DNA of 36,763 nt. Origin: a virus. The stretch spans positions 1 to 36,763 of IMG/VR virus record IMGVR_UViG_3300046660_000410; one strand, given 5' to 3'. Shown here in pieces: positions 3,604-32,879 of this stretch. The notes beneath the pieces were generated by a model. It ran no database searches. It saw nothing but the letters and a program-made list of their open reading frames with translations, and had not been told where the DNA came from. The position numbers and the translations under genes were made by a program. Every line of letters starts with the position of its first letter. Position 1 is the stretch's first letter.

Positions 3604-3619
3604 GCGCAGACGTCTGCAC
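3604..3619. repeat. Dispersed 16-bp palindrome, copy 1 (one mismatch)
   Basis: GCGCAGACGTCTGCAC differs from the full palindrome GTGCAGACGTCTGCAC at its second base only. The copy lies in the gap between the convergent FRG and endolysin genes and touches the endolysin stop codon by one base. Confidence 0.85.
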
Positions 3620-4152
3620 TAAGGCTGGAGATACATTGCACGCTCAGCCCTTCGGCGCGTCGTCAGGCCAGGCATGGCTGCCCCGCCCGCTTTATTCCAA
3701 AGCAGGAACTTGTCAGCCGCAACCCGGTACTCCCGCCTCGCGGTGCTGCGGCAAACAGAACTGAGTCCGAATGCCCTTACACCGATGTTGTACGTCAGCG
3801 AGGTACACGCCGCCTGGCGCGGCGGCGCTTCGAGCAGAAGCTGGGGGCATGCCCGCAGCACCGCCACCAGCACGCCACCGACGCGTCGCTCCAGTTGGGC
3901 TTCGGCCTGATCGAGCGTCCACCACATGCCCTCGGTGACACCGTCCGTCTCGCCATAGCCAATCGTCCATGGCGCCCCATCCAGTTCACGCATGGCAGGC
4001 GGGATTTCCGCCTTGCCCTGCATGTACGCAGTCAGGATGCGCGCTTTGCGCATCACGACCGCGAGCGGCGATGCTGGGTCAGGATAGGCGCGAAGCGACA
4101 GGCCCTCGCTGGGCCTGATCAGTCCGCACGCCAGGTCGAGTGCCGCGCTCAC
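3619..4152 (-). CDS. Phage endolysin, GH24 (T4-type) lysozyme, 177 aa
   Basis: This muramidase cleaves peptidoglycan for host lysis. The GH24 signature is present: SEGLSLRAYPDP with the expected catalytic Glu at residue 16 and Asp at 25, then WTIGYGETDG with Thr at 63. An unusual spacer of about 35 residues separates the Asp from the TIGYG strand, longer than in T4 lysozyme. There is no N-terminal signal or signal-anchor segment, so release should need the holin. It starts with GTG at 4152 and overlaps the holin stop by 4 bp (GTGA). This implies translational coupling. The length fits the family. Confidence 0.9.
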   Translation of the reverse strand: MSAALDLACGLIRPSEGLSLRAYPDPASPLAVVMRKARILTAYMQGKAEIPPAMRELDGAPWTIGYGETDGVTEGMWWTLDQAEAQLERRVGGVLVAVLRACPQLLLEAPPRQAACTSLTYNIGVRAFGLSSVCRSTARREYRVAADKFLLWNKAGGAAMPGLTTRRRAERAMYLQP

Positions 4153-4622
4153 GACTTCTTATCCAGCACGCGGCCGACGAACCAGAACGACAGAATGCCC
4201 GTCAGCAGCGCGCGGTCTTCCTGGTCATACACCTGCAGCACGGCCTGCCACACGCTGCCGCCGGCATTCAGCGCCACGGCAAACAATGCCACCTTGGCCA
4301 GGCCATAGAGGATGAGCATGTAATAGGTCGTCACCGGCCGCACTAGGATGTTCAGGGCATCGACCCACCAGACCCCGGTCAGCTGTGATTGACCCACCAA
4401 CGCGCCCTTTTGCGCATCGAGCAGCGCCAAGGTTTGCGCCGCATCGGTTGTCAGCTGGATCTCGTCTTTGCGCGCCGTAGCGCGAGACTGTTCCAGCTGC
4501 AGCTGGCGGTCCAGCATGGCCAGCTCATGTGCGTTGTCGGTGTGCTTATTCAGCAGGCCCAGCAGCTCGGGCAACAGGCGCATGAGGCCGCCGCCCAGCA
4601 TCGTCAAGAGGGAGATAATCAT
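4149..4622 (-). CDS. Holin, 157 aa
   Basis: The protein makes the lethal membrane lesion that lets the endolysin reach the wall. A hydrophobic N-terminal segment (residues about 1-24) is followed by a charged helical region (about 28-75) and two C-terminal hydrophobic segments (about 95-120 and 135-152). This matches the three-segment holins with a long charged loop found in many proteobacterial prophages. The assignment rests on topology and position. The gene overlaps the upstream small membrane protein and the downstream endolysin by ATGA/GTGA junctions, so the three form one coupled unit. Confidence 0.8.
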   Translation of the reverse strand: MIISLLTMLGGGLMRLLPELLGLLNKHTDNAHELAMLDRQLQLEQSRATARKDEIQLTTDAAQTLALLDAQKGALVGQSQLTGVWWVDALNILVRPVTTYYMLILYGLAKVALFAVALNAGGSVWQAVLQVYDQEDRALLTGILSFWFVGRVLDKKS

Positions 4623-4801
4623 TTGAATCCTTTCGTAGAACCGTATGCCGCCACCAGCACCAGGGCGGCGATGATGGCCTTCCAGACAACCGCCCAGACC
4701 CCACGGCCGATATCGCCGTAAAACCGCTCGGTCATGCGCTGTTCCATTTCGTCGACGATAGCTCGCACATCATCGTCACTCAGTTTGCGTTCTTCTGGCA
4801 T
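4619..4801 (-). CDS. Small single-membrane-span lysis-cassette protein, 60 aa
   Basis: The protein has a charged N-terminal half with an acidic/basic helix (LSDDDVRAIVDEMEQRMTER) and one hydrophobic segment (about residues 36-54). Small proteins of this kind accompany holins in many prophages and may act as antiholin or holin accessory. That role is inferred from position only. A Shine-Dalgarno GAAAGG lies 5 nt before the ATG, and it is directly preceded by a terminator-like hairpin (4812-4841). The gene overlaps the holin by ATGA. Confidence 0.7.
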   Translation of the reverse strand: MPEERKLSDDDVRAIVDEMEQRMTERFYGDIGRGVWAVVWKAIIAALVLVAAYGSTKGFK

Positions 4802-4811
4802 TGCGCCCTTT

Positions 4812-4841
4812 CAGAAAAAGAAAAGCCGCCCTATGGCGGCT
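4812..4841 (-). terminator. Terminator-like hairpin just upstream of the lysis genes
   Basis: On the minus strand, AGCCGCC-ATAG-GGCGGCT is followed by TTTCTTTTTC. It sits between the stop of the 114-aa gene (4847) and the Shine-Dalgarno of the 60-aa gene. It could attenuate read-through or protect mRNA ends. It belongs to a family of similar intergenic modules in the late operon. Confidence 0.7.
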
Positions 4842-4846
4842 GGTTG

Positions 4847-5191
4847 CTAAATACCTGCCGAGCGCTGGCAGTGGTTCCGATCAAGCCATTCGAGGAACTT
4901 GCATAAGAGACAGCCCCAGCGCCGTCCTGCAGCCCGCGCTCTGTCCGCGCGGCTGCTGACGGTCTCATCGGGATTTCCATTCAGGGCAGCGTTGCCCAGC
5001 TGGTCGTGAGCGACGGCCATCACCCACGCCTTGTCGGGGTCTTTCCCAATCAGGTAGAACATGCGCCAGGCCGCGAGCAGCGAGGCAGCCAGGCAGATCG
5101 GATAAATCGCCAGCAGCCGTATCCTGGTCACCAGGGCGAGCCGCAACTGGCGCAGCGCAGTCGCGCTGGCCAGCTCGAACTCCCCGACCAT
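4847..5191 (-). CDS. Phage membrane-anchored hypothetical protein, 114 aa
   Basis: One probable membrane segment spans residues about 27-47 (AIYPICLAASLLAAWRMFY). A conserved-looking segment follows (AHDQLGNAALNGNPDETVSS), then a Cys-containing C-terminus (RRWGCLLCKFLEWLDRNHC). Proteins with this NPDETVSSR-to-HC arrangement recur between tail-fibre and lysis genes of proteobacterial prophages, as I recall, without an assigned function. Its start overlaps the preceding gene's stop (TGATG). A lysis or superinfection-exclusion role is possible but not shown by the sequence. Confidence 0.75.
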   Translation of the reverse strand: MVGEFELASATALRQLRLALVTRIRLLAIYPICLAASLLAAWRMFYLIGKDPDKAWVMAVAHDQLGNAALNGNPDETVSSRADRARAAGRRWGCLLCKFLEWLDRNHCQRSAGI

Positions 5192-5604
5192 CAGATCGGC
5201 CAGAGCGCCGTCTGGGCTTGGCCAGCCAGGATCAGCGCTTCTTCCAGTTCTGCCACCGAGACAGATACCGGAGTGTTATCGGCCAGTATCCACATCGTGT
5301 CGGCCTGCCCCGCTGCATCCAACGCGGTGATCGCCCTGGTCATCCGCCCCTGGCTCACCTCGTCGCCATCGAAGATACGCCCACTGGCGGTCGTGACCTT
5401 GATCGCCCGCACGCGTTCTTCACGCTCGCGCTTCAACTCTTCGCGGGACTTCGGCGCCGGCGCCGGCGGCTTGAACTCATCGCCGTCTTGTTCATCACCG
5501 ATCATTGCCGTATCCGACCGGATGGCGCCAATCGAAGCCGCAAACCCTGCGTCGCAGTGAATCGCGTTGACCACCACGCCACCATCAACGATTACATATC
5601 GCAT
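5191..5604 (-). CDS. DUF4376-type tail-fibre-associated protein, 137 aa
   Basis: The C-terminal half has the DUF4376 pattern: RVRAIKVTTASGRIFDGDEV, then a repeat of helices ending WILADNTPVSVSVAELEEAL. This domain is common in proteins encoded just after phage tail fibres, either as fibre assembly factors or as small structural parts. A proline-rich linker (KPPAPAPKS) separates a small N-terminal strand-rich region (MRYVIVDGGVVVNAI). I chose the ATG at 5604 because it overlaps the fibre stop as TGATG. A longer frame upstream is antisense noise inside the fibre gene. Confidence 0.8.
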   Translation of the reverse strand: MRYVIVDGGVVVNAIHCDAGFAASIGAIRSDTAMIGDEQDGDEFKPPAPAPKSREELKREREERVRAIKVTTASGRIFDGDEVSQGRMTRAITALDAAGQADTMWILADNTPVSVSVAELEEALILAGQAQTALWPI

Positions 5605-7880
5605 CAAACAATCCCCCAAATTTGCAGCGCGCCGTCGCCGCCTTTTTTCCCAAAGCCCCCGCAACCACCGCCCGGCTGTTGCCCGTCCATGGCGTACGCC
5701 GCTCCACGAATACGCAGCAACGCTGTCGCACCAGCCGGCGTGTTACCGGTCGTGGAGGTGTAAGTCAGCGAAAAGGTCAATGCCGCATTTCCCGCCCCAG
5801 CGGAAACCCGCGCCGCCCAGTTCGTCATCTGCATGCCGTTACCGGTGTTGTAGTTGTAATACCCGTTCGGCAGCACTTCGGCGAACGTCGCGCCGGCCAG
5901 AGAGAAGGTCGGCACGCCACTTGGCGACCCGGAATACCCGTTGATGCAGGTCGCCGCAAGGAGCAAGTCATCAACGGCAACATCGATGGCACCAGTCGCA
6001 ACGGAGTAGGACGTACCAGCAGTGTTATCAGCACCGCCAACCACGCTTACGGTTGGCGTCGAGCCATTCGCGGCTTTGACCAGGTACGATGCGACGACAG
6101 ATTCCGAGAATCCCGTACCCGTGACGCTCACCGCCGCGTCAGAACCCGCCATTACGCGCGTGAACACGGTGACGCGACGAACGCCCGAGTTTGCGCCGAA
6201 CGTTCCGACACCGCCGCTATACGAGCCAGCAAAGGTCCATCCTGCAGGAGTGGCGGGCGTCGCATCTGTTGAATGCGAAGTGTAGGTAACGATGATGCCA
6301 AGGTCGCCAGCCAGCGCGCCAGCTGCGGCTAGGTTGACGGTTACACCGGCCGTCAGATTAGGCGTTGGCGTGCCCTGGATCTGCATAACGGCAAAGCCGC
6401 CCCGACCGCCTTGCCCACCGTTGGTCGACGTCCCGCCGGCGGGATTGTCGCCGATGCCAGTCGACGTGGACCCGCCAGCTCCGCCGTTAACACTGAAGCC
6501 TCCAATGTTATAGCCACTGCCGCTATCGCCGCCGCCAGCGCCACCATCCACCGATTTGCCCGCGCCTCGAACGCTGACCCCTGCCGGGAAGCCGCCGCCG
6601 ATCGAGTTGTCTACGAACGCCGTCCCGTCTGTGAACTGGGCCGGAGCGCCGACAGTACCAGCACCGCCAGCACTCAATGCTCCGCCGCCCCCTCCAGGCG
6701 CCCCCGAGTTAGCGCCACCGCCACCGTACGCTGTCGCCGTATGGAAAACTGTACTTCCGCCCACCACTCCAGGCGGACCACCGGCTCCAATCAGCACCGA
6801 AACAGCCGCAGGCAGCGCTGAGGCCTTGAAGCTAAGAGGGATACGCACGCCGCCGCCGCCGCATCGCGCTCCTACAGAATTGTGAGCTAAGCTCCCCGCC
6901 TCACGGCCACCACCAGCGCCCCATGCGAAACCGGAAAATGCCCGGTAGCCGGGCGGTTTGATGAACGTGCCCGACGATAGGAATTCCTTGAAGAAGGGGT
7001 TCACCACATAGCTGTTCAGCGCTGCGCCATCGCACTGGATCAGGCGCAGCTCGCCCGGATACACCACGAACGACGACAGCCCGTCGATGGTTTCAGCACC
7101 GGCCGGATCGAGCGTCACATCCCCATTGCCGCCATTGCGATACCACACAAACCAGCCGTTGCCCAGATTGACGGCGCTGTCGAAGGTCTGCGTGAACGTG
7201 CCGGAAGTCACTTCGACCACGGCCTGCTGGTCAGAAAACACCAGCTGGGTATTCGCCGTCCGCGCGATGCGCTTCACCGCGGCGCTGGCGATGCCTGGAT
7301 CACCCTTCAGGCCACGCACGCCGGCAATGCTGATATTCCAGTTCGCTCCATTGCCTGCGCCGCCAACATCAGTGACCGCAATGGTCAGCGCCACGCCGGC
7401 ATACGCCTTCACCGTACCCGCCATGTATCGTGCCGGGTTGTCCGCGTCGACGGCGATGATCGGCGCATTGATCGCAAATTGCTTGCCGGCTGCCACAGCG
7501 AAGACTTTGTCGCCCGCTCCAATGGTGAGATTGGACGGGCTGCTGGTGATGACTTGCGTGCCCGCCGCAGCGGCCGCGCTGATGGCCGCGCTGCCTGCGC
7601 TCGCTGCTGCTGCATCAGCGCTCGCCGCTGCAGCGGTGGCCTTGGTGACGGCGATATTGGCCTGTGCGCCGGATGCCGTCGCGCTGTTCGCTGCAGCCAC
7701 CGCGTTACCGTAGGCATCGATAGCGTTGTTGTAGACGTTCGTGGCGAGCGCCGCGAACTGTGGAACCGCGTCGATCACCCAGGACACGAAATCGTCCACG
7801 CGGTCCTTGAAAGTGGCCCGGTCACCGCGCTGAGGCTTGACTGGACCGGGGGTCATTGCAGGAGGTTGTACTTGAGCCAT
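5604..7880 (-). CDS. Glycine-rich tail fibre / adhesin, 758 aa
   Basis: This is probably the host-recognition fibre. The N-terminus (PQRGDRATFKDRVDDFVSWV) and an Ala/Ser-rich helical repeat (residues about 60-110) resemble the virion-attachment and coiled-coil part of phage fibres. A middle region (about 290-480) has repeated glycine blocks (GAGGG, GGGGV, GGAGG), like polyglycine-loop adhesins of the T4 gp38 type. The C-terminal part (about 490-740) looks like a strand-rich binding domain. The protein ends in another glycine cluster (GGGCGGFGKKGGDG). The start is ATG 7880, overlapping the upstream stop as TAATG. The open frame continues upstream to 8273, but that part is a shadow of the next gene. 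Confidence 0.8.
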   Translation of the reverse strand: MAQVQPPAMTPGPVKPQRGDRATFKDRVDDFVSWVIDAVPQFAALATNVYNNAIDAYGNAVAAANSATASGAQANIAVTKATAAAASADAAAASAGSAAISAAAAAGTQVITSSPSNLTIGAGDKVFAVAAGKQFAINAPIIAVDADNPARYMAGTVKAYAGVALTIAVTDVGGAGNGANWNISIAGVRGLKGDPGIASAAVKRIARTANTQLVFSDQQAVVEVTSGTFTQTFDSAVNLGNGWFVWYRNGGNGDVTLDPAGAETIDGLSSFVVYPGELRLIQCDGAALNSYVVNPFFKEFLSSGTFIKPPGYRAFSGFAWGAGGGREAGSLAHNSVGARCGGGGVRIPLSFKASALPAAVSVLIGAGGPPGVVGGSTVFHTATAYGGGGANSGAPGGGGGALSAGGAGTVGAPAQFTDGTAFVDNSIGGGFPAGVSVRGAGKSVDGGAGGGDSGSGYNIGGFSVNGGAGGSTSTGIGDNPAGGTSTNGGQGGRGGFAVMQIQGTPTPNLTAGVTVNLAAAGALAGDLGIIVTYTSHSTDATPATPAGWTFAGSYSGGVGTFGANSGVRRVTVFTRVMAGSDAAVSVTGTGFSESVVASYLVKAANGSTPTVSVVGGADNTAGTSYSVATGAIDVAVDDLLLAATCINGYSGSPSGVPTFSLAGATFAEVLPNGYYNYNTGNGMQMTNWAARVSAGAGNAALTFSLTYTSTTGNTPAGATALLRIRGAAYAMDGQQPGGGCGGFGKKGGDGALQIWGIV

Positions 7881-8803
7881 TAAATCAGTCCTTGCATGGT
7901 AAAGCGAAGCGTGCAGCGATCGCTGCCGTTGTAGGTGATGGTCCCGCTGCCCAGGCCGAAGCCGCGCAGGCCCGCGTATTCCGGATTTGCGCTGGCACTC
8001 CAGACGCAAGGAACCGCCTGCAGGCGCTGAATCGCCGCGAGCACGGTGCGTGCTTCCGATCGTTCCAGCACCGCTGTGACCTCCATATCGGTTACGTTCG
8101 GCCGCTTTTGGATCTCGGTATTGCCGAAGGAGTCGGTATCGATGTAGCTGTAGGTGCGCGGCGACACTTGCGCATCGGCGAGCGTCTGGCCGAGGGGAAT
8201 CATTTCCCCAAACGCCAGCAGCCCGCACTTCACTGGCCCGGTGACCTTGGTCAATCGGACCGTAACTTCGCACTTGTAGTACGGATCAACACCGTTCACG
8301 AGCAGCTCAGTCATCGGAATGAAGCCGCCCCAGAAGTACTCGTCGTAGTCCCCTGGTCGGGATGCCTCCAGCTCTTGGGTCATCTCGAAGATCACCGTGC
8401 CGCCGGTCTTATCCTTGACGGAGATGGATACCGCGTCGGCATCCATTCCGGCCAGGTAGAGATCCCTGCAGGGGCCAGGTCGCAGCACTACTTCCAGAGG
8501 CGAACTGGCCACCGTCTGTGTGTTGACCTGGTTGTCGAACATCAGCCAGCGATTGCTCGACTTCTTGTCCACCCACCAGGCGGGCGCGCCGGCTTGGTTC
8601 TCAAGCAGGGCCGGATCGTGATTCAGGTTGCCGTCCTTGCCCGAGGCGTAGACGTGGTTCGTAGTGGGACTTCGGCAAAGCTCCCCCGCCGCGTAGGTCT
8701 TGGTCTGATCCCACAGCAGCACCGTCTCGGGGACGGTGCTGCTGACGAGCATGTCGCTGGTGATATTGACCGGCTCCAACACGCTTAATACTGCTGTCGT
8801 CAT
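7880..8803 (-). CDS. Phage tail protein, 307 aa
   Basis: A virion tail or tail-tip component by position, directly after the tape measure. Near the N-terminus it has LLWDQTKTYAAGELCRSPTT, a WDxTKTYxxGD-like segment seen in carbohydrate-binding or fibre-associated modules. A strand-rich body follows, with an N-terminal APAWWVDKKSSNRW stretch. It has a strong Shine-Dalgarno AAAGGAG before ATG 8803, 11 bp after the tape measure stop. The exact structural role (distal tail or hub-like) cannot be told from sequence alone. It is one of only two sizeable proteins between tape measure and lysis genes. Confidence 0.7.
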   Translation of the reverse strand: MTTAVLSVLEPVNITSDMLVSSTVPETVLLWDQTKTYAAGELCRSPTTNHVYASGKDGNLNHDPALLENQAGAPAWWVDKKSSNRWLMFDNQVNTQTVASSPLEVVLRPGPCRDLYLAGMDADAVSISVKDKTGGTVIFEMTQELEASRPGDYDEYFWGGFIPMTELLVNGVDPYYKCEVTVRLTKVTGPVKCGLLAFGEMIPLGQTLADAQVSPRTYSYIDTDSFGNTEIQKRPNVTDMEVTAVLERSEARTVLAAIQRLQAVPCVWSASANPEYAGLRGFGLGSGTITYNGSDRCTLRFTMQGLI

Positions 8804-8814
8804 GTTCTCCTTTC

Positions 8815-11800
8815 TCAGCCTGCGAGCTGTACCAGCAATGGCCGCGCGCCGTTCGTCACCATCAGCGGCCCGCCGTTTGTGGAGATCCGCTGCAGCAGCT
8901 CCGCCGTCTTGCCGGTGCCGCCCTCAACGTTCTCCATTACCTTCTGCAGCCGCTCGATCAGCCGGCCCAGCGCCGCGAGTTGCGCTGCCACTTCACCGTT
9001 GTCGGATCGCAGCAGCGCCTGCGTTTGCTGGGCGTTGAAGATGCGAGAAGGCCCGGTGACTTCCAGCTCGGGACCGTTCTCCCCCACTAGCCGCAGGCCG
9101 CCCAGGTGATCGCCACCTGTTGCGAATCCCGGCACGCCATGCGCCCTCAGCCAGTCAGCCCAGGAACCGCTACCTTTGGCATCAAGCTCGGGCTGCGCGC
9201 CCTTGATGAAATCCGCGATTTCCGCGTTGTCGACACTGGCGCCGAATGCATTGGTCCAGAACTCCAGACCCGCCGCGTCCGGATCGCGCCCCAGCACCGT
9301 CTTGTACAGATCGGTAACGGTGAAGTTCGTCTGCCCCGGATTGCTCTGGCTGGCACCGCCCTTCACGGCCGCTAGCGCCGCCGCGAATCCAGCCATCGCC
9401 GCATTGAGCGACTGCACGCCCTGATTGATGCCCAGCAGCTGGTCCAGTTGCGATTTCGCGCTATTGGCAATCTGATCCAGCCGCTCCAGTTGCTTCTTGT
9501 AGGCCTGCTCCAGGCTCGTCTTCTGCTCCTGCAGCGAGTCGAGCATTTGCTGCTGGACCGACACCTGGCCGTCCGTCAGGTCGGCCAGGGCAGCGATATC
9601 GCCGGCCGTCTTGTAGTAGTCACGCTGGTATTCATCGAACGACGAGAACTGTTTGCTCGCGTCGCGCGACAACACCGCCAGGACATCCTTGAACTTGTCA
9701 GCATCCGGCAGGCCACCACCGGCGCGGGCTTTCGCCAGCGCTGCTTGCAGCTCGGCCTGCGCGGCCAACCGATCGGCACGTTCAGCACCCGGTGCTTGCA
9801 TTCCGCTGAGCGCGCCTCGCAGCGACTGCGACAGCGACTGCAACTTGCCCAACGCACCTGACGCGGAGTCAATCTGAGCCTGTAGCGCTGCCGCTTGCTG
9901 CTCGTGCGTCGCCGTGGCCGCGTCCTTCTCGGCGCTAACTGACTGCTGCAGCTGATCGAGCGCCGCGTTCACGCCTGTCTTCAGCGCATCCGTTACGCCG
10001 TCGATCTTGCTTTGCGCCTCGGCCAACGCATCGGCCGCGGAGCTCGCCGACTCTTTCGTTTCGGCCAGGTAGTCAGCCACGGTTTTGAACGTCGGCGCCA
10101 GCGCGAGCAAGGCCGCGTAGGTCTTGGTCCCGGCGTCCGTCGCCAACGCACCGGATTGCGCCAGCTGGAGCACAGCAGCCTTGTAGTCCGCTGCCGTCGT
10201 CAGGCCGGCATACCCCAGCTCCTCCAGGCGCTTATTCAGCTCCCTTTGGACCGGCTCGATTTGTTCAGCCTTGCTCAGGAAGTTCTGCGCGAAGAACTGG
10301 CTCTGGCTGGCCAGTGCATCAGCACCGCCGGCCAAGTCGATCAGACGCTTGCGCGCTTCCTCGCTGGCCAGGCCAACCGCACCGAACGCCGTGCTGGTCG
10401 ATACACCCAGCGCCTCGATCACCGCGTTCGTGGTCCGGAACTCCAATGCAACGCGACTGAGCGCCGCGCTGGTGGACTCGGTCGAGCCCTTCAGCTGCGC
10501 CAGCTCCTGCAGCGACACCGTGGCGCCAAAGATCGCTGCGCCGCTATCCCCGAGCGCCTTGCGGAAGTCGAGGATGGCCGCTGCCTCGCTGGCCAGCTCC
10601 GGAGACGAGCCCTTGAAGTTCTCCAGTAAACTGGAGAGCCCCGGTGCAATGCCTTCGAAGATGACGTTCAGGCGCTGCTTGAAGACCTCGTCCAGCTGAC
10701 CGGTCGCGTTAGGGTTCGCGCCTTCCTCGCCCGTGTGCGCGATGAACGAGTTGCTGCTGACCGCGGTGGTCACGGACGCCTTTTCGGTATCGGTCAGGAA
10801 GCCGGCCAGGGCATTGTCCACCTGTGTAACGGTGTTGATGAACCCTTGCACGGCATCCTGCTGGCTGCTCATCCAGAAGGAGCGCGACACCCCAAACGTG
10901 CCGAAGGCGCCAGTGCCATGCCCATCGATATACGACTGGTCCCACTTGCCCTCGTTGCCGCGCTCATTGATGCTGATATTGCCGGCTTGGTTATTGCTGG
11001 CAAAGGTCAGATGCGTGTCCTTTTCCGGACCGTCACCGAAAATGCCGCTCATACCGATCAGGGCCGCCGCACCCATCGCCGCCCAGCCCCAACCAGGAAT
11101 TGCCGCAATGGCGGTGCTGATGCTCGACCCCAGGCTCAGGCCGCTGGCGACGGCGCCTGCACCAGCAGAGTCGGCAGCTGCAGCCGCCTCATACGCAGCG
11201 ATCGCCTCCCCTGCGGCGGCGCCCTGCGACAGTCCGGTGCCAATCGCGGAGATATAGCCCGATCCGACCAGGTTGCCGATGCCGGTGACCGTGCCACCCA
11301 CGCCGGCAAAGGTGTTGTACAAGTTCCCCAGGCCAGATGCGGTCTGCAACGCGCTGACCGGCGCGCTGCCGCCGCCAACCGAGCCGGTGACAACGCCCTG
11401 GATGGTTGGCCGCAGCACCGTCGTCTTGAACATGTTGACGCCGGTGTCGAGCAGGTTCCTCAGGAAGCCCTTGCCGCTCTCGAAGCCACGCATGAGCGCG
11501 TCGGTGAGCGAGCTCTCGATCTGGTCAGCCGTGCGCTTCCACGCCTGCTCTGTCTGCTTGGCGGCCTCAACGCCCGCCTCTTTCATCGCGCCTTCGCGCT
11601 TGGCCGACGCCAGATCCCGCAGCAACTTGGCCTGCTCGCGGTAAGTCGCGGACAGAACGCCGGTCAGGTCGACCGTCTCGGCCAGAGTCGCATTCTGTTC
11701 CAGCGTCGCGGCCTGGTCTTCCAGCCGCGCGGCAGCCAGGTCAGTCACGCCCTGAGCGTTGAGGCCGATCTGCTCGTTGTAGTCCTTCTGCGTGGTCAGT

Positions 11801-17420: not shown

Positions 17421-17436
17421 GTGCAGACGTCTGCAC
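17421..17436. repeat. Dispersed 16-bp palindrome, copy 2 (perfect)
   Basis: GTGCAGACGTCTGCAC, exact. It lies between the capsid gene and the next late gene, 11 bp upstream of that gene's ATG, beside the capsid-gene hairpin. Confidence 0.92.
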
Positions 17437-23514: not shown

Positions 23515-23530
23515 GTGCAGACGTCTGCAC
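23515..23530. repeat. Dispersed 16-bp palindrome, copy 3 (perfect)
   Basis: GTGCAGACGTCTGCAC, exact, 21 bp upstream of the HNH start codon and near the head of the late operon. The following 23531-23671 stretch shows no gene I can support. Confidence 0.92.
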
Positions 23531-23876: not shown

Positions 23877-23878
23877 AG

Positions 23879-24833: not shown

Positions 24834-24928
24834 TCGCTACCTTTCTTTCGTATGCCCGTTTTCTACACTGAACCGCTTGATAATTCCGCTTCTTATAACC
24901 CGGATCAGGCTTTTCAGGCTTCGCTTCA

Positions 24929-25151: not shown

Positions 25152-25153
25152 AC

Positions 25154-27898
25154 TCAACCCAGCTCACCTTCGCCACGCACATCCGCCAACTTCCTGAATT
25201 TGTCGATCGCCTCCTCCAACTGCTCCTTGGTCGGACGGTCGATCTCATAGACCATGCGGCTCTTTGGCTGCTTATTGCCCACCGCTACCTTGCGCTTCAC
25301 CTTGTGTTCCCTGCTGGCGATAAAGCCCGAGAACTTGGTCAGCGACAGCTGCTTCTCTCCACTCTTGTCACACCACCGGCGATAGATCTTGTAGAGGTCT
25401 TCAGTCAGACAGGAGCAGTACGGGGCATCAAGATAGCCATCCTTCCAGGCGCGATGAAAGGACATCCAGCCGTTCAGGCCGAACTCGATCACGCGCTCCT
25501 TCGCCAGCGTCATAGGAGGCTTCGTATGTTCGTTGAAGCCATCGAGCGGAAAGTTCAGCAGGAAGTGATAAAAGGCTTCAATACCGCCAGCTTCAATGGA
25601 ATCCTTGACCTTGCGATAAAACTCCTCCGACTGCTTGGTCCGTGCCTCAATCACCATGAAGCGGCGGTCCTCCAGCTCGATTGGAATCGGCTGCGGCTCA
25701 TTGGAGAGAAAGGCTGCGTTCATGTGGTTGCGCTCGGCGCGCTCCGGCAGGTTCTTCTGGTTGATGCTCATATGCTTGCCGGTGACCATGTACTTCAGCG
25801 TGCCGTTATGGCTGTACTTGTCGTCACGCGACAGCACCTCCTCGAACAGCACGAACAACTTGCGCGAGCGCCAAGCCGTGAAAGTCGAGTCCAACTGGTG
25901 CTGACTAGCCACGGTGCCGTAGTCACCATAGATCGGCGCAATCACATCCTGGAAGAAGAGGCTTTTGCCGGTGCCCTGCTTTTCGCCAAACATCAGCAAG
26001 GCCGTTTGCATCTTGGCGCCAGGATGCTGCAGCGGATAGGCCAGCCAGCGCAAGATCCAGGCCACGCACTCATCCACGTTGTCTTCGGCTCCGCACAGCG
26101 ACTCAAGGAGCCCGAGGATTGGCAGGACCAGTTGTTCGTTCGCCTTCGGCACCAACGGCCAGCCGAGGAAGATGTTCACGTGCGTGACCGGGTCGGCTTG
26201 CTGCGTCGGATCGAACACCAGGTTCTTGGCCTCGATGGTCTTGCGCATGGCGTGCTCTTGCCACTTACTCGTGAGCTCCGCCGTGTAATCTGCGCGCACC
26301 GCGCCCAGGCTCATGACCTGCTGGCCGATGCCATCCCACACCGTTTCAGTGCCGCGCAGAAGAGTCAGCTGCTCCAGCATCTCAGCCAACTTACCGCCCC
26401 CCGCCCCCCCCTCAATCGATTTGCCGCCGACCAGGGCGGGTAGGCTCTCGCGCATGATCGTGCGCCGGCCTTCGGACTTCTCCCAGCTGGCCGCCATTTC
26501 CTTGCCCACCCAGGCCGTGAAAGCCGATTTCTTCAGGCGCTGCTTGCGCAGACCGTCCCACACATCCGTGGTTGGATAGATCAGAGAGAAATGCGCCAAC
26601 AGCACTTCCAGCGTAGGAACGCGCAAGCTGGGGGCCTCGCCATCAACAGCAGCCGATGGTAGATCCGCCGCCACTACCTGACGCGGCTCCACTGGCGCTA
26701 CCAGCGCAGCATCGACTTCCACAGAGGATGCGGGAGACGACTGATCGGCGTAGGGCCGGTTCGCGATGGCGGCCATCACCTGCTCGCGCGCAGCGTCCAG
26801 CGACTCCTCCACATGCAGGTCGTTGAAATCGGTCCACTTGTTCTCGCCGCGGTTGACGAATGCAGGCCACACGACACGTGCGTTGCCGACTTCACGCGCC
26901 GCAGCGCGGGCGCTGGAGATACCGGCATTCTCGAACTTCCAGATCTGGAATCGACGGCCGGAGCGCACATCCGCCTCAATGTAATCGGTGCCAGTGAAAT
27001 CCTTACGCCAAGTCGCGCGCACCGTAACCGCATCGCCCTTGGCGTTCTGCAACACATGGTCCGCGCCATCAATTGGTGGCGCCGCCACATCAAATTCTTC
27101 GAAAAGATCACGCTCGTAACGGTGGACAAGCTGCCAGTCGTCGTCAGCGAAGATGATAAGCTCTGCTGCAGGGAAGTCTGTACGCAGCTGGCGCGCCATC
27201 GCGAGAATGTTCCCAGCCATGAAGGTCAGCATAACCGGCAGCGCTTCGTCGCAAGCCATGCGTACCGAGCGCCCACTGGCATACCCTTCAGCCAAGCCGA
27301 TCTGGCATGTGTCGGCGCTGATCGTACCGAGGAGGTAGCCGGCGCCGATCATGTCAGCGCCGGCATTAAAGCGCTTCTCGCCTGTCGGATTGATCTTCTG
27401 CACGCATACCAGGTCACCACCGCCACGCGAGTAGCGGCGCGCCGGCACCAGCAGCGTGCCACTCTCTTCAACGCGCACGCCTTCTGCGGTGATCTTCTTG
27501 CGCACCAGGTAGGGAACTTCTGCAGTGGCGTCCACGGCCTTGGCTTGACGCCACTGGCGACGAGCCCGGCCAGCGGCCAGCTCCGCAACGTGCTTGCGGC
27601 GCTGCTCATCGTCTCGTTCTTTCTGCTCTTGGCGGCGTTTGAGTTCCGCCAGCTCTTCGTCAGTGATACCGGACCAGTCTACGTCAACCTTTACGGTCCC
27701 CGGATCACGCCCCTGCCAACGACCAAACGAACCGGCCACTACCATGCGCCCGTCCTTCAGTACGATCTCCGACAGCTTGTACCACGACTTCTTACCCTTG
27801 CCGAATTTCTTGAACTTGCCGCTGGTGTCCAGCGGTATCGACGGCAATGCCGGCAACACCGCAGACATCTGCGCCAGTACATCAGTGACCGTTGCCAT
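25154..27898 (-). CDS. Toprim primase / DUF5906-type helicase replication protein, 914 aa
   Basis: Likely primes and unwinds phage DNA. The N-terminal part has a Toprim-type fold (residues about 195-255): IGLAEGYASGRSVRMACDEA, then TFMAGNILAMARQL and LIIFADDDW with the metal-binding acids. The C-terminal half is an SF3-like/DUF5906 helicase: Walker A FGEKQGTGKSLFF near residue 640, KLFVLFEEVLSRDDK as Walker B, and AAFLSNEPQPIPIELEDRRF as sensor region. A charged linker with a repeat of basic residues lies at about 85-125. It starts at ATG 27898, directly after the TAA of the upstream gene. It is the largest early gene and lies next to the iteron-like cluster. Confidence 0.88.
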   Translation of the reverse strand: MATVTDVLAQMSAVLPALPSIPLDTSGKFKKFGKGKKSWYKLSEIVLKDGRMVVAGSFGRWQGRDPGTVKVDVDWSGITDEELAELKRRQEQKERDDEQRRKHVAELAAGRARRQWRQAKAVDATAEVPYLVRKKITAEGVRVEESGTLLVPARRYSRGGGDLVCVQKINPTGEKRFNAGADMIGAGYLLGTISADTCQIGLAEGYASGRSVRMACDEALPVMLTFMAGNILAMARQLRTDFPAAELIIFADDDWQLVHRYERDLFEEFDVAAPPIDGADHVLQNAKGDAVTVRATWRKDFTGTDYIEADVRSGRRFQIWKFENAGISSARAAAREVGNARVVWPAFVNRGENKWTDFNDLHVEESLDAAREQVMAAIANRPYADQSSPASSVEVDAALVAPVEPRQVVAADLPSAAVDGEAPSLRVPTLEVLLAHFSLIYPTTDVWDGLRKQRLKKSAFTAWVGKEMAASWEKSEGRRTIMRESLPALVGGKSIEGGAGGGKLAEMLEQLTLLRGTETVWDGIGQQVMSLGAVRADYTAELTSKWQEHAMRKTIEAKNLVFDPTQQADPVTHVNIFLGWPLVPKANEQLVLPILGLLESLCGAEDNVDECVAWILRWLAYPLQHPGAKMQTALLMFGEKQGTGKSLFFQDVIAPIYGDYGTVASQHQLDSTFTAWRSRKLFVLFEEVLSRDDKYSHNGTLKYMVTGKHMSINQKNLPERAERNHMNAAFLSNEPQPIPIELEDRRFMVIEARTKQSEEFYRKVKDSIEAGGIEAFYHFLLNFPLDGFNEHTKPPMTLAKERVIEFGLNGWMSFHRAWKDGYLDAPYCSCLTEDLYKIYRRWCDKSGEKQLSLTKFSGFIASREHKVKRKVAVGNKQPKSRMVYEIDRPTKEQLEEAIDKFRKLADVRGEGELG

Positions 27899-28318
27899 TT
27901 ACTTGCTTTCCGGCCGCACCGAGGATTTATAAGGGACCTGTACGCCGCCCATCATTGACGGAATATCCCGGTAGTCCATAGCGCCTGGGCGCAGTACCAT
28001 CGCACTACGGCTGCGGAGCGGGCGATTCACGATGGCCGTGCGCGGCGCAGCCAGTTCACCGATATATTTCACTTCTGCCGGTTCAGGGCCTTCCGCGAAG
28101 CGCAGGCCATCCTTTGTGATCTCGATACCATTTCGGACAATGCGCGCCAGACCGGCGCCGCACAGCGCGTTGACAACCTCCTGCTCGAACTGGATGCGCC
28201 CACGAGTCCACCCCACACGCGCCATCAAAGTAACAGGGCGAACAGTGGTTCGTGCCGCAAACAGCGCGATCAAGGTATTAGCGGGAAAAGTCCCGCGACG
28301 AGGCAGGTTTTTAGCCAT
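27899..28318 (-). CDS. Hypothetical early protein, probable winged-helix, 139 aa
   Basis: The family is not recognised. The N-terminal 80 residues (NTLIALFAARTTVRPVTLMA, then RVGWTRGRIQFEQEVVNALC and GLARIVRNGIEITKDGL) have the helix-helix-strand rhythm of a winged-helix domain. They may bind DNA or act as a replication accessory. The last 45 residues are Arg/Pro-rich. I chose ATG 28318 because it overlaps the CII-like stop by 8 bp. The upstream extension is basic and antisense-like. It is directly followed by the primase gene (TAAATG). Confidence 0.65.
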   Translation of the reverse strand: MAKNLPRRGTFPANTLIALFAARTTVRPVTLMARVGWTRGRIQFEQEVVNALCGAGLARIVRNGIEITKDGLRFAEGPEPAEVKYIGELAAPRTAIVNRPLRSRSAMVLRPGAMDYRDIPSMMGGVQVPYKSSVRPESK

Positions 28319-28787
28319 TGACCACCTCCAGACGCGCATGTGCCGGGGCAGGTGTTGGGCAATACTCCAGAACTTGCAGCGCATTGATCTGGCAGAGCGT
28401 CGCATGCATTCGGTTCACGATGTCCTGTAGATCGGCGCTCTCCCGCTTGTCGATCTTACCGTCCTTCTTCGCTGCGAGATATGCGGCGGACAGTTCACCC
28501 AGCTCGATGTTCAGCTCAATGAGCTTATCGTGGATTTCCTCATCCGAAAGGTCTCCGACCTTCGGCAGCTCGTAGAAGATACCGCCGCTGGCATGAGCTA
28601 CAGCTTGGGCAAAATGTGTCGTTCCGGCGTATCGTTGGATCAAGAGGGCCGTATCAACGCGCATGCCAGATCCCTTGACTTCGTACACTCGCGCTTCCAG
28701 CGCAGACTTCGTCATGCCCAGGGTCCCAGCGGTACCGGCCCAGCCATGAACTTTGATCATTTCTTGGTATGCAGCCAATAACTCCAC
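28311..28787 (-). CDS. CII-like / YmfL-type phage regulator, 158 aa
   Basis: Transcription regulator of the early operon in the lambda CII position. The segment GTLGMTKSALEARVYEVKGS is a helix-turn-helix like that of YmfL and Phage_CP76 (CII-type) proteins. The following TTHFAQAVAHASGGIFYELP and EIHDKLIELNIELGELSAAY match the same family. The start is chosen as GTG 28787, with AAGGA 7 nt upstream. An earlier TTG (28823) and later ATG (28760) are possible. Cro precedes it and the putative winged-helix gene overlaps its end. Confidence 0.75.
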   Translation of the reverse strand: MELLAAYQEMIKVHGWAGTAGTLGMTKSALEARVYEVKGSGMRVDTALLIQRYAGTTHFAQAVAHASGGIFYELPKVGDLSDEEIHDKLIELNIELGELSAAYLAAKKDGKIDKRESADLQDIVNRMHATLCQINALQVLEYCPTPAPAHARLEVVNG

Positions 28788-28876
28788 AGTATCTTCCTTC
28801 ACTTCTTGGGTTTCAGATAACAAAACTATCGATTACCATTGCCTATGCTCGTAAAACAAAGGCGGCTCAAAAGGTC

Positions 28877-29131
28877 TTAATTAGGGGTGTCAGAAGGCGG
28901 CGGATTGCTGCCTGGTTGACGCAGGTATTCCCAGAAGCCCGACTTGTCCGGGCGCAGGTCTTGGCACGTGACGGCAACATCAGTCGCCTTCTCGATCTGT
29001 GCGCAGCGTTCGAGCGGAATTAGTCGCTTGCCCTTGCGCCATTCACTGATGGCCTGAGGGGAAACGTCCAAAATCCGCGCGAGGTTCGCCGCTCCGACGA
29101 TGTCGCAAGCTTTTTGAAATGGAGTATTCAT
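28877..29131 (-). CDS. cro: Cro-like repressor, YdaS-type, 84 aa
   Basis: First gene of the leftward early operon, divergent from cI. It has one helix-turn-helix of the YdaS/Cro kind (residues about 5-50: ACDIVGAANLARILDVSPQA, ISEWRKGKRLIPLERCAQIE). It should lower early transcription and favour lytic growth by binding the CI operators. There is no Shine-Dalgarno before ATG 29131. The predicted transcription start is only a few bases upstream, so the mRNA may be leaderless. Length is normal. Confidence 0.85.
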   Translation of the reverse strand: MNTPFQKACDIVGAANLARILDVSPQAISEWRKGKRLIPLERCAQIEKATDVAVTCQDLRPDKSGFWEYLRQPGSNPPPSDTPN

Positions 29132-29139
29132 GGCGACCC

Positions 29140-29168
29140 ATGGTAAGGCATTGCCTTACTTTGGTCAA
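29140..29168 (-). promoter_or_regulatory. Early promoter for cro (PR-like)
   Basis: On the minus strand TTGACC (29163-29168) and TACCAT (29140-29145) are separated by 17 bp. The spacer holds a CI operator that overlaps the -10. The predicted start of transcription falls at about 29132-29134, next to the cro ATG. Confidence 0.75.
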
Positions 29169-29215
29169 GTATTGATTGATGCGATCATTGCATCAGAAAA
29201 TCAAGCAATGCTTGA
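29143..29215. promoter_or_regulatory. CI/Cro operator cluster between cro and cI, with cI promoter
   Basis: Three related 15-17 bp palindromes: GTAAGGCATTGCCTTAC (29143-29159, perfect), TCAAGTATTGATTGA (29165-29179, imperfect), and TCAAGCAATGCTTGA (29201-29215, perfect). The third overlaps the probable cI -10 (TGATAAT, 29213-29219), which suggests autoregulation. A wider inverted repeat TGATGC-N7-GCATCA (29177-29195) lies between them. Confidence 0.8.
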
Positions 29216-29239
29216 TAATTCAACTCACGGTTTAAACCA

Positions 29240-29956
29240 ATGACGGCACTGCCAATACCCCCACTCTCAGCCAAGATTCGCCAAGCCATCGACGAGAGCG
29301 GCCGGACCAAAGCGGACATTGCGCGGGAGCTTGGCGTGACCAAGCAGTCCATCACTGGTTGGATTGAGTCCGGGCGTATTAGCAAGCCAAACCTGCTGAA
29401 ACTGGCAGAGCTCCTAGAAATCAATATCAATTGGTTTATGGACAATACCATGGGGCAAGATGCCCTGAAACATGGTAAATTGCAGCTTGTGAAGACTTCC
29501 CCGCCGGCGTTCACCAGCAATGTCTCGCCGACAGCAATAGGTAAAAGAGCAATACCCGTGATTTCTGCAATTCAAGCTGGCGCGCTCAAGGAAATAGCGC
29601 AACCTTACGAGGCAGGCGATGGCTATGCCACTGTTTATGCCGATGATGACTACTCGAAGTGGGCGTTCGCTTTGGAGATAGAGGGCGAATCGATGATGCC
29701 TGAGTTCCGGCCGGGCGACATCGTGATCATTGAGCCCGAGTGGCAGCCACGACCAGGTGAATACGTGGCCGCGAAAAATGGCAGCGAAGAGGCTACGTTC
29801 AAGAAATACCGTCCACGCGGGACGAATGCAACAGGCGACATGATCTTTGAACTCGCCCCGCTGAATGAAGACTATCCTACCTTACGAAGCGACATAACGC
29901 CTTTGACCATCATCGGAGTTATGGCCGAACACCGCCGCAAGGCTCGACGCCGCTAG
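29240..29956 (+). CDS. cI: CI repressor with S24 (LexA-type) self-cleavage domain, 238 aa
   Basis: Maintains lysogeny. The N-terminal helix-turn-helix is at residues about 10-65 (ADIARELGVTKQSITGWIES). The C-terminal S24 domain has the Ala113-Gly114 cleavage site (IQAGAL), nucleophile Ser151 in EGESMMPEF, and Lys188 in EATFKKY. The repressor is therefore expected to be inactivated by RecA on DNA damage. ATG 29240 has no good Shine-Dalgarno and only a short leader from the likely -10 at 29213. A strong terminator follows at 29978. Confidence 0.93.
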   Translation: MTALPIPPLSAKIRQAIDESGRTKADIARELGVTKQSITGWIESGRISKPNLLKLAELLEININWFMDNTMGQDALKHGKLQLVKTSPPAFTSNVSPTAIGKRAIPVISAIQAGALKEIAQPYEAGDGYATVYADDDYSKWAFALEIEGESMMPEFRPGDIVIIEPEWQPRPGEYVAAKNGSEEATFKKYRPRGTNATGDMIFELAPLNEDYPTLRSDITPLTIIGVMAEHRRKARRR

Positions 29957-29977
29957 AATTCAACCTCCCGTGTAGAG

Positions 29978-30001
29978 AACCCGCTGATGCGGGTTTTTTT
30001 T
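29978..30001 (+). terminator. Terminator after cI
   Basis: AACCCGC-TGAT-GCGGGTT followed by six further T residues, 21 bp after the cI stop codon. It isolates cI from the rightward operon. Confidence 0.9.
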
Positions 30002-30022
30002 CGTCTACTGCTTTACTGCACG

Positions 30023-30064
30023 GTAAATCTTTGCTTGACCATGAGTAAAGCATTGCCTTATCAT
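30023..30064 (+). promoter_or_regulatory. CI-controlled promoter of the rightward operon (PL-like)
   Basis: TTGACC (30035-30040) and TATCAT (30059-30064) are 18 bp apart. Operator GTAAAGCATTGCCTTAT (30045-30061) lies in the spacer and differs from the perfect cro-side operator at two positions. A degenerate second site (30023-30039) overlaps the -35, centre to centre 22 bp away. Confidence 0.75.
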
Positions 30065-30093
30065 CGCCTAACTTACTTCAAGGGAGGCAAACC

Positions 30094-30294
30094 ATGCAGT
30101 CAAGCAGTGCAGTCGGCGCCAGCTCTAAAAATCAAGACCACACGGTGCGAGTAGTGCAGAAAACCGAGGACCCCTATCAGGGCCTCAAAGGACATGCTTA
30201 CATCGCGGCCCGCAATCTTTCACCGCATGTAACGAGGCGTGTTCAGACGTCTGCACAGCAGGTGCCAAGCGCTCCCCGCGAGGTGAGTAAATGA
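30094..30294 (+). CDS. Small hypothetical protein, first gene of the rightward operon, 66 aa
   Basis: The family is not recognised. The protein is hydrophilic and Ser/Gln-rich, with no membrane segment and a central region (TVRVVQKTEDPYQGLKGHAY). The start is firm: AGGGAGG lies 6 nt before ATG 30094, about 30 bp after the -10 of the CI-controlled promoter. It overlaps the next gene by ATGA. A one-mismatch copy of the 16-bp palindrome lies in its 3' part. As the first gene after the promoter it may be a small early host-takeover factor, but nothing in the sequence proves this. Confidence 0.65.
   Translation: MQSSSAVGASSKNQDHTVRVVQKTEDPYQGLKGHAYIAARNLSPHVTRRVQTSAQQVPSAPREVSK
30241..30256. repeat. 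Dispersed 16-bp palindrome, copy 4 (one mismatch)
   Basis: GTTCAGACGTCTGCAC differs from the full palindrome only at base 3. It lies inside the 66-aa gene, about 35 bp upstream of the next start codon. Confidence 0.85.
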
Positions 30295-30806
30295 GCGCTG
30301 CATCGATGCCCCTGACCTTTGCCAGCGGCACACCAGGCGATCAGGCAGCTGCACTCGTTGCCAGTCTGGCTAAGCTGCAGATCGCTGCCGCCAACGTCGT
30401 GGAACTCGCCGAGCAGGCGGGCTTCGCCGGCATGCGCGGCGACACTGTTGACGATCTCCGCACCGCCCTGGCCATTCACGGCCACGTGGTCCACCAGTTC
30501 AACGTGACGGTGCGCACCAGCTGCAGCACCTCCACCTTCTGCACATGCGCCACTTCCTCCATGGCAGCGGCACAAGCGGCCGCTGAGTGCCAGGGCGATA
30601 CGCCTTGTGGCATCACCGTTACGCCAGTCGAGCCGGACCGCCAGGCGCTCGCCGCCACGGCCCGCGCCATGGGCGTGAAAGGCCGCCTGGACGACGCGCT
30701 AAAAGACCCGACCCTTCGCGTGGCCATCAATTCCTTTGCGCGCAAGCAGCTGCGCCGCAGCCACACCACCGATTTCAAATCCCTCGCGGCGAACGACCGC
30801 GATTAA
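30291..30806 (+). CDS. Hypothetical protein with Cys-rich middle, 171 aa
   Basis: No family recognised. An Ala-rich helical N-terminal part (residues about 15-70) is followed by a Cys/Ser/Thr-rich stretch (TSCSTSTFCTCATSS) and another Cys pair. A basic C-terminus ends SFARKQLRRSHTTDFKSLAA. It is coupled to the previous gene by ATGA, with GAGGTGAG as Shine-Dalgarno, and is 12 bp upstream of the ParB-like gene. The operon setting suggests a partner of that protein or an independent early function. Confidence 0.65.
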   Translation: MSAASMPLTFASGTPGDQAAALVASLAKLQIAAANVVELAEQAGFAGMRGDTVDDLRTALAIHGHVVHQFNVTVRTSCSTSTFCTCATSSMAAAQAAAECQGDTPCGITVTPVEPDRQALAATARAMGVKGRLDDALKDPTLRVAINSFARKQLRRSHTTDFKSLAANDRD

Positions 30807-30818
30807 CCAGGAATCCTT

Positions 30819-32879
30819 ATGGCAACTGAACTTACCCTCATCCCGGCCCCACAACTGGCTCCGAATGGCCTGCCAGCCGTGCTCAACGAATTGAAAATGG
30901 AAGACGGCAGCAGCTTCGGCCACTTCAACGTGACGCACCTGGTCAACTCCCCAGGCAACCGCAAGCGCTTCAGCGAAGACGGATTGCTACAGCTTGCCGC
31001 ATCGATCCGCGAAAAGGGCGTCGCGCAGCCGATACTGATCCGACCACTTCCAGCAGCCGCAGACGGTACGCCACGCTGGGAGGTTGTCGCAGGTGAGCGC
31101 CGCTGGCGCTCTTCGGTCATGGCGCCAATCAACCATATCCCTGCCACTTGCCGCTCCATGACCGACCAGGAGGCCGACGAACTGCAGATCCTTGAGAACT
31201 TGCAGCGCGAAGATCCGCATCCACTGGAGGAAGCTGAGGGCTATGAGCGGATGATGTTCAAACATGGCTACTCCGCCGACCAGCTGGCCGAGCGCGTCAA
31301 GAAGAGCCGGGCCTACATCTACGCCCGCCTGAAGCTGTGCGCGCTCTCGCTCGGCGTCCGGGAATCCTTCCTGGACAATGCAATCTCCGCGTCCACTGCT
31401 CTGCTCATCGCGCGTATTCCAGTGCCCGAGCTGCAGCTGAAAGCTTTAGCAGAGATCCTGAAACCCGACTGGCGCGGCGAAACCATGTCCTATCGCGCCG
31501 CTGCGGCTCACATCGAACAACGTTACACCCTCGATCTGGAGGATGCCCCTTTTGACCTAAAGGATGCAAAGCTGCTCGCAACAGCAGGGAACTGCATCAA
31601 GTGCCCAAAGCGCACCGGCAATCAGCCAGAAATTTACAAGGATGCAAAAAGTGCAGACGTCTGCACTGATCCTGACTGCTTCGCTGAGAAGAAGGCCGCG
31701 CACTACCAGCGCATCATCGTCACCGCGAACAAGAAGGGCATTCCAGTGCTGGAAGGCGATGAAGCCGTGGATGCATCACCGAACAACTGGAGCCGCGATG
31801 TGGAATTCGTGAGCGAAGACCATCATTTGAGCGCATTTGACCGAGTGGCACAGGCAACAGGAATGGCCGGATCGATCAAAAAGCACCTGGCGGCCGCCGC
31901 CATGCCCGCGCCGGCTAAATACCTTAAAGATGACGATGGCAGCGTTGACGCACTCTATCGACGCGAGGACATTCAGGCCGCACTGGAAAAAGTTGGGGCT
32001 TGCGAAACTGTGGAAGTGCACACCGCCCGCCTGTCCACGAAGGGCGACGAAAACCCACACGACAAAGCCCAGAAGGCCGCGCTGAAGGATCGGCAAGAGC
32101 GCGAGGAAAAAGAACGTCGTGCTCAATCCATTACGCTCGAGCGCGTAACTCGCTATCGCAAGCTGCGGGCACACATCAGCGCCTTAGGTGGCATGGACAC
32201 TCCCATGCTGCGCGAGCTTGCCAAAGCGATGGTCAGCGACTATCCCCTGCCAGACGACCTGATCGGCGACCTGTACGACTTCGAACGCGACGACGATGCG
32301 GTCTGCGCGTTCATCGACCAGGCTGACTATCCAGCGATCCAGCTGCTGATGATGGACCTTATTGTGGGTGAAAGCCTGAGCGTGGGCGTCTGGGACCTTG
32401 ATGATGAGCCGACAGCTGCCTACTGGGCTGTGCACACCATGGCAGATGCTGTGGGTATCGAAGTCACGCCGGCCGATCTGGCGGTTGCCGGCATCGATGT
32501 CGCCGATCTGGAGGACGCCGTGGATGTCCGCGATGCCATTGCCGAGAACATCGAGCACTTGGGCGCCGTGGCCGCGCACATCATCGACAAAGCGCCGCAC
32601 CACCTGGCGAACGTGGAGGTCGCCGCGAACAGCCTGGGCTATTTCTACAGCACTGCCGGCTGGCAAAAACAGGCTGAACAGACATCCACGGTAGATAGCA
32701 CGGATTCCGCTACGCCGCGCAAAACGCTCACGGTCAGCCGCAAGCCAGCAGCCAAGGAGGATGCCACCGAGAACAGTAGCGGGCCGACTATCTCCGTCAA
32801 GAAGACGCGACTGACGCCGGCGGCCGCTTGGCCGTTCCCGACCCAACAACGCACCACCGCGCATGAATCGAATTCTTGA
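30819..32879 (+). CDS. Large ParB/KorB-like DNA-binding protein, 686 aa
   Basis: The N-terminal half is a ParB/Srx-type domain with helix-turn-helix. It has GLLQLAASIREKGVAQPILI (residues 55-74), EVVAGERRWR (88-97, the CTP-binding GERR segment of ParB), ENLQREDPHPLEEAEGY (126-142, the classical ParB box), and SADQLAERVKKSRAYIYARL (152-171, HTH). Next comes a possible zinc site with Cys259, Cys262, Cys282 and Cys287. The C-terminal half (about 350-686) is acidic, helical and not recognised. Length is about twice that of chromosomal ParB. No ParA gene is seen. A perfect 16-bp palindrome copy lies within its own reading frame. Confidence 0.85.
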   Translation: MATELTLIPAPQLAPNGLPAVLNELKMEDGSSFGHFNVTHLVNSPGNRKRFSEDGLLQLAASIREKGVAQPILIRPLPAAADGTPRWEVVAGERRWRSSVMAPINHIPATCRSMTDQEADELQILENLQREDPHPLEEAEGYERMMFKHGYSADQLAERVKKSRAYIYARLKLCALSLGVRESFLDNAISASTALLIARIPVPELQLKALAEILKPDWRGETMSYRAAAAHIEQRYTLDLEDAPFDLKDAKLLATAGNCIKCPKRTGNQPEIYKDAKSADVCTDPDCFAEKKAAHYQRIIVTANKKGIPVLEGDEAVDASPNNWSRDVEFVSEDHHLSAFDRVAQATGMAGSIKKHLAAAAMPAPAKYLKDDDGSVDALYRREDIQAALEKVGACETVEVHTARLSTKGDENPHDKAQKAALKDRQEREEKERRAQSITLERVTRYRKLRAHISALGGMDTPMLRELAKAMVSDYPLPDDLIGDLYDFERDDDAVCAFIDQADYPAIQLLMMDLIVGESLSVGVWDLDDEPTAAYWAVHTMADAVGIEVTPADLAVAGIDVADLEDAVDVRDAIAENIEHLGAVAAHIIDKAPHHLANVEVAANSLGYFYSTAGWQKQAEQTSTVDSTDSATPRKTLTVSRKPAAKEDATENSSGPTISVKKTRLTPAAAWPFPTQQRTTAHESNS
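31651..31666. repeat. Dispersed 16-bp palindrome, copy 5 (perfect), inside the parB-like gene
   Basis: GTGCAGACGTCTGCAC, exact, in the part of the gene coding for the Cys-rich segment (SADVCT). parS sites inside parB-type genes are known in other systems. Confidence 0.92.

Follow-up and report, generated by a model that had tools for sequence, protein, structure and literature searches.

The ParA motor is the usual partner of ParB. In the chromosomal ParB-parS systems (Spo0J/ParB, parS TGTTNCACGTGAAACA), a protein with the ParB CTPase fold and an HTH_ParB domain is paired with a 16-bp palindrome that has a central ACGT. A parS site can also lie within the parB gene, and the spo0J gene of B. 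subtilis contains one. All of these features are shared by the window, which is the entire 36,763-nucleotide stretch of viral DNA analysed here (IMG/VR record IMGVR_UViG_3300046660_000410). The outer bases of the phage site differ from those of chromosomal parS (GTGCA compared with TGTTN), and the phage recognition helix (KKSRAYIYARLKL) differs at the aligned DNA-contact positions. Unlike the chromosomal proteins, the phage ParB has a zinc finger and an extra C-terminal part of approximately 400 residues, there is no ParA, and the sites are dispersed along the phage.

Phage N15 likewise has a ParB, SopB, with several dispersed palindromes, the IR sites, which contain a superficially similar GTGCGACC..GGTCGCAC repeat (PMC7205306). 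N15 exists as a linear plasmid prophage, has SopA and needs partition, whereas the window phage integrates, has no ParA-type ATPase and carries a parB gene that is apparently repressed by CI. KorB of plasmid RK2 is likewise a ParB-fold CTPase with multiple dispersed operators, and its role is gene control (PMC11790492). The KorB operator is different from the phage palindrome, no KorA is known here, the sites are often intragenic, and the sequence similarity to KorB is weaker (E 5e-9 in a PDB search).

Noc is likewise an orphan ParB without ParA, and its sites (NBS) are scattered along the chromosome. The window ParB scores 128.5 bits against the Noc model TIGR04285, under the cut-off of 315, and the site is different. 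The PRTRC ParB model (TIGR03734) matches residues 46-297 of the window ParB, past the ParB core, but the score of 128.3 bits is under the cut-off of 278.6, and PRTRC occurs on plasmids rather than in the early operon of a temperate phage. A 2025 survey of ParB-fold proteins, in the part of its text considered here, reports many orphan ParBs on mobile elements with largely unknown targets and roles and contains no description of such sites (PMC12704722). A full-text literature search for the palindrome found no paper, and the VarioGold paper notes a ParB domain without mention of repeats, palindromes or parS.

Palindromes, ParB and early region of the window

The window contains five copies of the palindrome, three of them exact and two differing at one base (Table 1), and the original prediction was correct in the position and mismatch call of each. 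It had also described a 12-bp core (GCAGACGTCTGC) as intact in all five. This core is present in four copies; the copy at 30241 begins it with T, and the sequence shared by all five is the 11-mer CAGACGTCTGC. The general form of the palindrome is GTGCANACGTNTGCAC, where N is mostly G or C, and the base composition of the window is 60% G+C. In dinucleotide-preserving shuffles of the window, matches with three or fewer mismatches have a mean of 0.23 and a maximum of 2, and five are never found. All five palindromes are genuine, and their number is far higher than expected by chance.

Table 1. Coordinates of the palindromes, the parB gene and associated features in the window.
Feature	Position	Strand	Description
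Host tmRNA 3' part (integration site)	1..126	+	att repeat again near 36440-36475
ParB-site copy 1	3604..3619	.	GCGCAGACGTCTGCAC, 1 mismatch; intergenic, between convergent FRG-domain and endolysin genes
ParB-site copy 2	17421..17436	.	exact; terminator-like hairpin of capsid gene on one side, ribosome-binding site of next gene on the other
ParB-site copy 3	23515..23530	.	exact; leader of HNH-endonuclease gene, just upstream of start; head of packaging/late operon
CI/Cro-type operator, first copy	29143..29159	.	GTAAGGCATTGCCTTAC, between cro and cI
CI-type repressor	29240..29956	+	HTH and S24 peptidase
CI/Cro-type operator, second copy	30045..30061	.	between/overlapping -35 TTGACC (30035) and -10 TATCAT of early-left promoter-like site
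ParB-site copy 4	30241..30256	.	GTTCAGACGTCTGCAC, 1 mismatch; inside short early-left ORF, 570 bp upstream of parB
Orphan ParB, 686 aa	30819..32879	+	ParB_N (CTPase fold) residues 46-129; HTH_ParB residues 131-219; long C-terminal part
HTH recognition helix region codons	31299..31337	+	KKSRAYIYARLKL, residues 161-173
ParB-site copy 5	31651..31666	.	exact; within parB, zinc-finger codons S-A-D-V-C-T
Tyrosine integrase	33555..34724	+	prophage chromosomal

The window protein contains a ParB_N domain (PF02195, E 8e-20) and an HTH_ParB domain (PF17762, E 5e-14). The nucleotide-binding boxes are conserved across the phage ParBs, with GERR in 38 of 39 and EN..R (ENLQR) in 39 of 39, and four cysteines (259, 262, 282 and 287) are invariant. 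In Foldseek searches the model of the window ParB matches ParB and Noc structures, several of which are nucleotide-bound. The fold of the DNA-binding domain (AlphaFold model, mean pLDDT 84.5) resembles those in the ParB-parS and Noc-NBS complexes (6s6h and 6y93), and the best TM-score for this domain among the matches is to 6y93 (Noc). With the ParB_N fold, its nucleotide boxes and the HTH_ParB domain, the window protein is of the ParB/Spo0J type.

The window is a prophage integrated at the tmRNA. Its gene content includes a tyrosine integrase, CI, Cro, CII, a primase and an HK97-like head module. The early-left promoter-like site with the second operator copy leads into the parB operon. Because a CI-type operator stands before this operon, parB should, by lambda logic, be silent in the lysogen and expressed soon after induction or infection. 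A CI operator shared in this way within the phage is clear in 4 of 21 phages and weak in one more, a low number that is partly explained by the mechanical calling of start codons. The shared operators in these few relatives are comparable, but of differing sequence.

Association between the site and ParB in phages and bacterial genomes

ParB_N is encoded in 47 of 50 site-bearing viral records. Among 43 records chosen by terminase alone, 21 contain both the site and ParB, 3 contain ParB only, 5 contain the site only and 14 contain neither (Fisher P=9e-5). Four of the five site-only records are short (28-31 kb), and a few records are shared between the site-bearing and the terminase-chosen sets. 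The palindrome and the parB-like gene thus co-occur among relatives, which is the check that had been proposed for them. The general form of the site, with one mismatch or fewer, is present in 45 of 50 records, most of which were chosen by ParB. When the proteins of 39 site-bearing genomes are clustered, ParB is the sole family in 39 of 39, partly by selection because these genomes were retained on the finding of ParB. The patchiness of the other families, which is not a product of that selection, is seen in the tape-measure (35), capsid (24) and terminase (20) proteins.

ParB-bearing relatives without the motif exist (G131, G133, G135, G142 and others), and the motif occurs without a detected long ParB in a few genomes. 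The motif is absent from a Myxococcus plasmid that encodes a distant long ParB. Of the three site-bearing viral records without ParB_N, G022 stops directly after the gene that precedes parB, which explains its missing ParB. In G026, another of the three, the upstream gene is present and a NACHT-like gene and an integrase are at the place of parB, which has apparently been lost. Record G004 carries the palindrome, has no recognisable homologue and was treated as a probable chance match or an unrelated phage.

Among the matches listed, more than 120 IMG/VR stretches contain the exact 16-mer, whereas a control palindrome of equal base composition gives 2. Copies with two or fewer mismatches number 2-8 per phage of approximately 37 kb in the window, in 40 further phage records and in the named phages Aval and VarioGold, compared with approximately 0.04 for permuted palindromes. 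Because the ParB N-domains span 32 to 97% identity across phages, those that share the palindrome and ParB are, by this measure, not a single recent lineage.

Whole genomes of 28 bacteria also contain the exact 16-mer, at 1-12 copies per 2.4-8.7 Mb. Most of these bacteria are betaproteobacteria (Duganella, Massilia, Janthinobacterium, Herbaspirillum, Noviherbaspirillum, Variovorax and others). These genomes were scanned by site; a scan of genome contigs with the window ParB as a single-protein query gave no match. In 21 of the 28, the distance between a site and a long phage-type ParB is no more than approximately 40 kb, and in most genomes the palindrome is gathered in one prophage block of approximately 35 kb together with the long phage ParB. 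An equal density in the host chromosome had been named as evidence against ParB sites. Instead, the palindrome is nearly absent outside the prophage blocks of these 28 genomes.

Site and protein also vary together. All six phages with a Phe191 ParB carry mainly C, not G, at position 6 of the site (C6 variant GTGCACACGTGTGCAC), compared with 0 of 56 others, although the six form one clade (70-93% identical) and the change is possibly a single event. Residue 191 of the window ParB aligns directly beside residue 201 of Caulobacter ParB, in which the recognition helix contacts bases and residue 201 is among the positions that set specificity for the core bases (PMC7383237). F191/C6 is a single but well-placed covariation.

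The site lies within parB in 30 of 39 genomes, mostly at the zinc-finger codons S-A-D-V-C-T between the invariant cysteines. With loci found by the ParB protein alone, the codons GCA GAC GTC TGC are used exactly in 21 of 37 ADVC-coding genes, where 0.047 is expected for each (P=8e-19, a value inflated by the kinship of the sequences). Because synonymous codons hold the exact site, the DNA appears to be under selection beyond the peptide alone.

The palindrome is thereby indicated in silico, by co-occurrence and covariation, as the cognate site of the window ParB, and the phage's own ParB very probably binds it. This agrees with the core of the original prediction, that the palindromes are sites of the phage ParB-like protein, for which co-occurrence, near absence from the host and covariation between the site and the DNA-binding domain all argue. 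The centromere part of that prediction is not retained.

Placement of the sites and candidate roles of ParB

Four site anchors recur relative to parB. These are in or just upstream of parB, at approximately 7 kb (head of the packaging operon), at approximately 13.5 kb (capsid) and at approximately 29-31 kb (lysis). The sites are spaced more evenly than random positions, which shared ancestry could account for in part. By a rough gene-calling script, 39% of sites are intergenic, compared with a background of 12%, and some sites look linked to promoters or leaders, which would also suit local regulation. The largest gap between window sites is 13.8 kb, and in the circularised prophage every point is within approximately 7 kb of a site. 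ParB is reported to spread approximately 15 kb from parS (PMC9242446).

A centromere for partition, acting through a host ParA or in an extrachromosomal stage, is very unlikely. It would suit the ParB fold and the parS-like sites, and one relative (Comamonas) is recorded as a circular 'plasmid', but this record contains integrase, portal and terminase and is a complete phage. ParA (AAA_31, PF13614) is found in 0 of 48 phages and in 14 of 14 control genomes. The ParA-binding motif [LFI]G[KR]G[LFI] is found in 0 of 39 ParBs, and in 1 of 70 when a second set is searched at full length. The sites are dispersed rather than clustered at a par locus or origin, and the prophage has an integrase and a tmRNA att site. 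A partition role was rejected because ParA is absent, and 'centromere-like' does not describe these sites. The analogy drawn with N15 is sound for the dispersal of multiple sites, but silencing in the lysogen is less likely because parB should be off there behind the CI-type operator. A ParB-independent explanation, in which the palindrome is the operator of a different transcription factor of the phage or the host, is extremely unlikely. The palindromic form and the leader positions alone would suit it, but no other protein family is common to all of the site-bearing phages compared, the site covaries with a ParB residue, and the sites in host genomes occur mostly inside prophage blocks that encode a long ParB.

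Two further explanations keep ParB as the binding protein. A global regulator like KorB, held at or near promoters and leaders and repressing or timing late and other operons without a genome-wide coat, is possible but doubtful. It is consistent with the intergenic enrichment, with the placement of two window sites, one in the leader of the HNH/packaging operon and one in that of the gene following capsid, and with KorB itself, a CTPase clamp of the ParB fold whose dispersed operators serve in silencing (PMC11790492). Many sites, however, are intragenic or far from expected late promoters (after capsid and at the lysis end), and the spacing is more even than random. Anti-silencing like that of VirB, in which ParB clamps would slide on phage DNA that has just entered or been induced and would remove H-NS-type silencers of the host, is unlikely. 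VirB is a ParB relative without ParA whose CTP switch is reported to counter H-NS (PMC10770331), and the expected early expression and whole-genome coverage fit, but the G+C content of the window argues against it.

The palindromes are best read as parS-type loading sites of an orphan ParB-CTPase clamp without partition, with a probability of approximately 0.8, a figure that excludes the final purpose. Inactivation of CI, or the first stage of infection, would lead to production of ParB from the early-left operon, and the HTH domain of ParB would bind the palindromes. The bound protein would then close as a CTP-gated clamp and slide outward, and such CTP-dependent loading and spreading of the predicted clamp is likely. 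Because no point of the window is more than approximately 7 kb from a site, clamps from all sites could cover the whole chromosome of approximately 36 kb. The resulting nucleoprotein would most likely act on the whole of the lytic chromosome by shielding or compaction, by displacing host silencing proteins, and/or by timing late transcription in the manner of KorB. ParB is somewhat more likely than not to act chiefly early in lytic growth, and coating of the whole genome is evenly balanced with promoter-by-promoter control. Late timing (KorB-like), silencer displacement (VirB-like), compaction and protection are candidate benefits of ParB among which the sequence does not decide.

Rather than segregating DNA, the ParB clamp probably forms a coat on the virus genome or controls it. 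Tentatively, widespread integrating temperate phages may use a zinc-finger orphan ParB clamp and evenly dispersed sites to form a genome-wide coat in the lytic phase, a 'phage nucleoid'. An orphan phage ParB clade is here paired with a specific 16-bp site in many diverse phages, together with a natural specificity variant. This pairing makes the function of phage ParB directly testable by binding, ChIP and knockout, and the site and protein pairs could add orthogonal ParB-parS labels.

Operator copies, end genes and the ParB tail

The CI/Cro-type operator GTAAGGCATTGCCTTAC is present in two copies, one of which lies at the putative PR side of the CI-type repressor gene cI and the other inside the putative PL promoter. 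At the ends of the prophage, one gene encodes an FRG-domain protein that matches the PADLOC candidate PDC-S15, and the product of a second matches PDC-M63A. The two cargo-like genes may be anti-phage defence genes. The C-terminal tail of the long ParB is predicted to be disordered and contains a P-A-x-A-W-P-F-P motif that is conserved among relatives. This motif is possibly a partner-binding peptide.

Features of the prophage, in window coordinates
Feature	Position	Details
CI/Cro-type operator, 17 bp, two copies	29143-29159 and 30045-30061	cI between the copies
Cargo-like genes, one per prophage end	2421-3587 and 35718-36362	FRG-domain/PDC-S15 match and PDC-M63A match
ParB C-terminal tail	32782-32879	Predicted disorder

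Palindromes in phages and bacterial contigs

In the related viral record G026 (L190:11586-14621), the sites and the gene upstream of parB are retained, and the place of parB is taken by a NACHT-like ATPase gene and an integrase. This is an apparent natural loss of parB. In the phage record G160 (L578/L579), the sites are mostly GTGCAAACGTTTGCAC, with A at position 6, and no ParB was found. These sites possibly form a third specificity class.

The palindrome also occurs in several copies on two bacterial contigs. The 183-kb Phycisphaerae contig JAJDDX010000500 (L271/L289; genome of 7.6 Mb) contains 12 copies, all exact, and has no match to ParB_N. It may represent a large phage whose binding protein has diverged or is unrelated. 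The Acidobacteria fen_186 contig PMZR01000139 (L311) contains an unusual cluster of five exact palindromes inside about 10 kb, and no long ParB was found for it.

A long ParB on a plasmid

The Myxococcus stipitatus plasmid pYRE (L601, NZ_CP102771.1) encodes a canonical ParA-ParB pair and, separately, a relative of the long ParB without a ParA of its own. This co-occurrence suggests that the long form of ParB has a distinct job.
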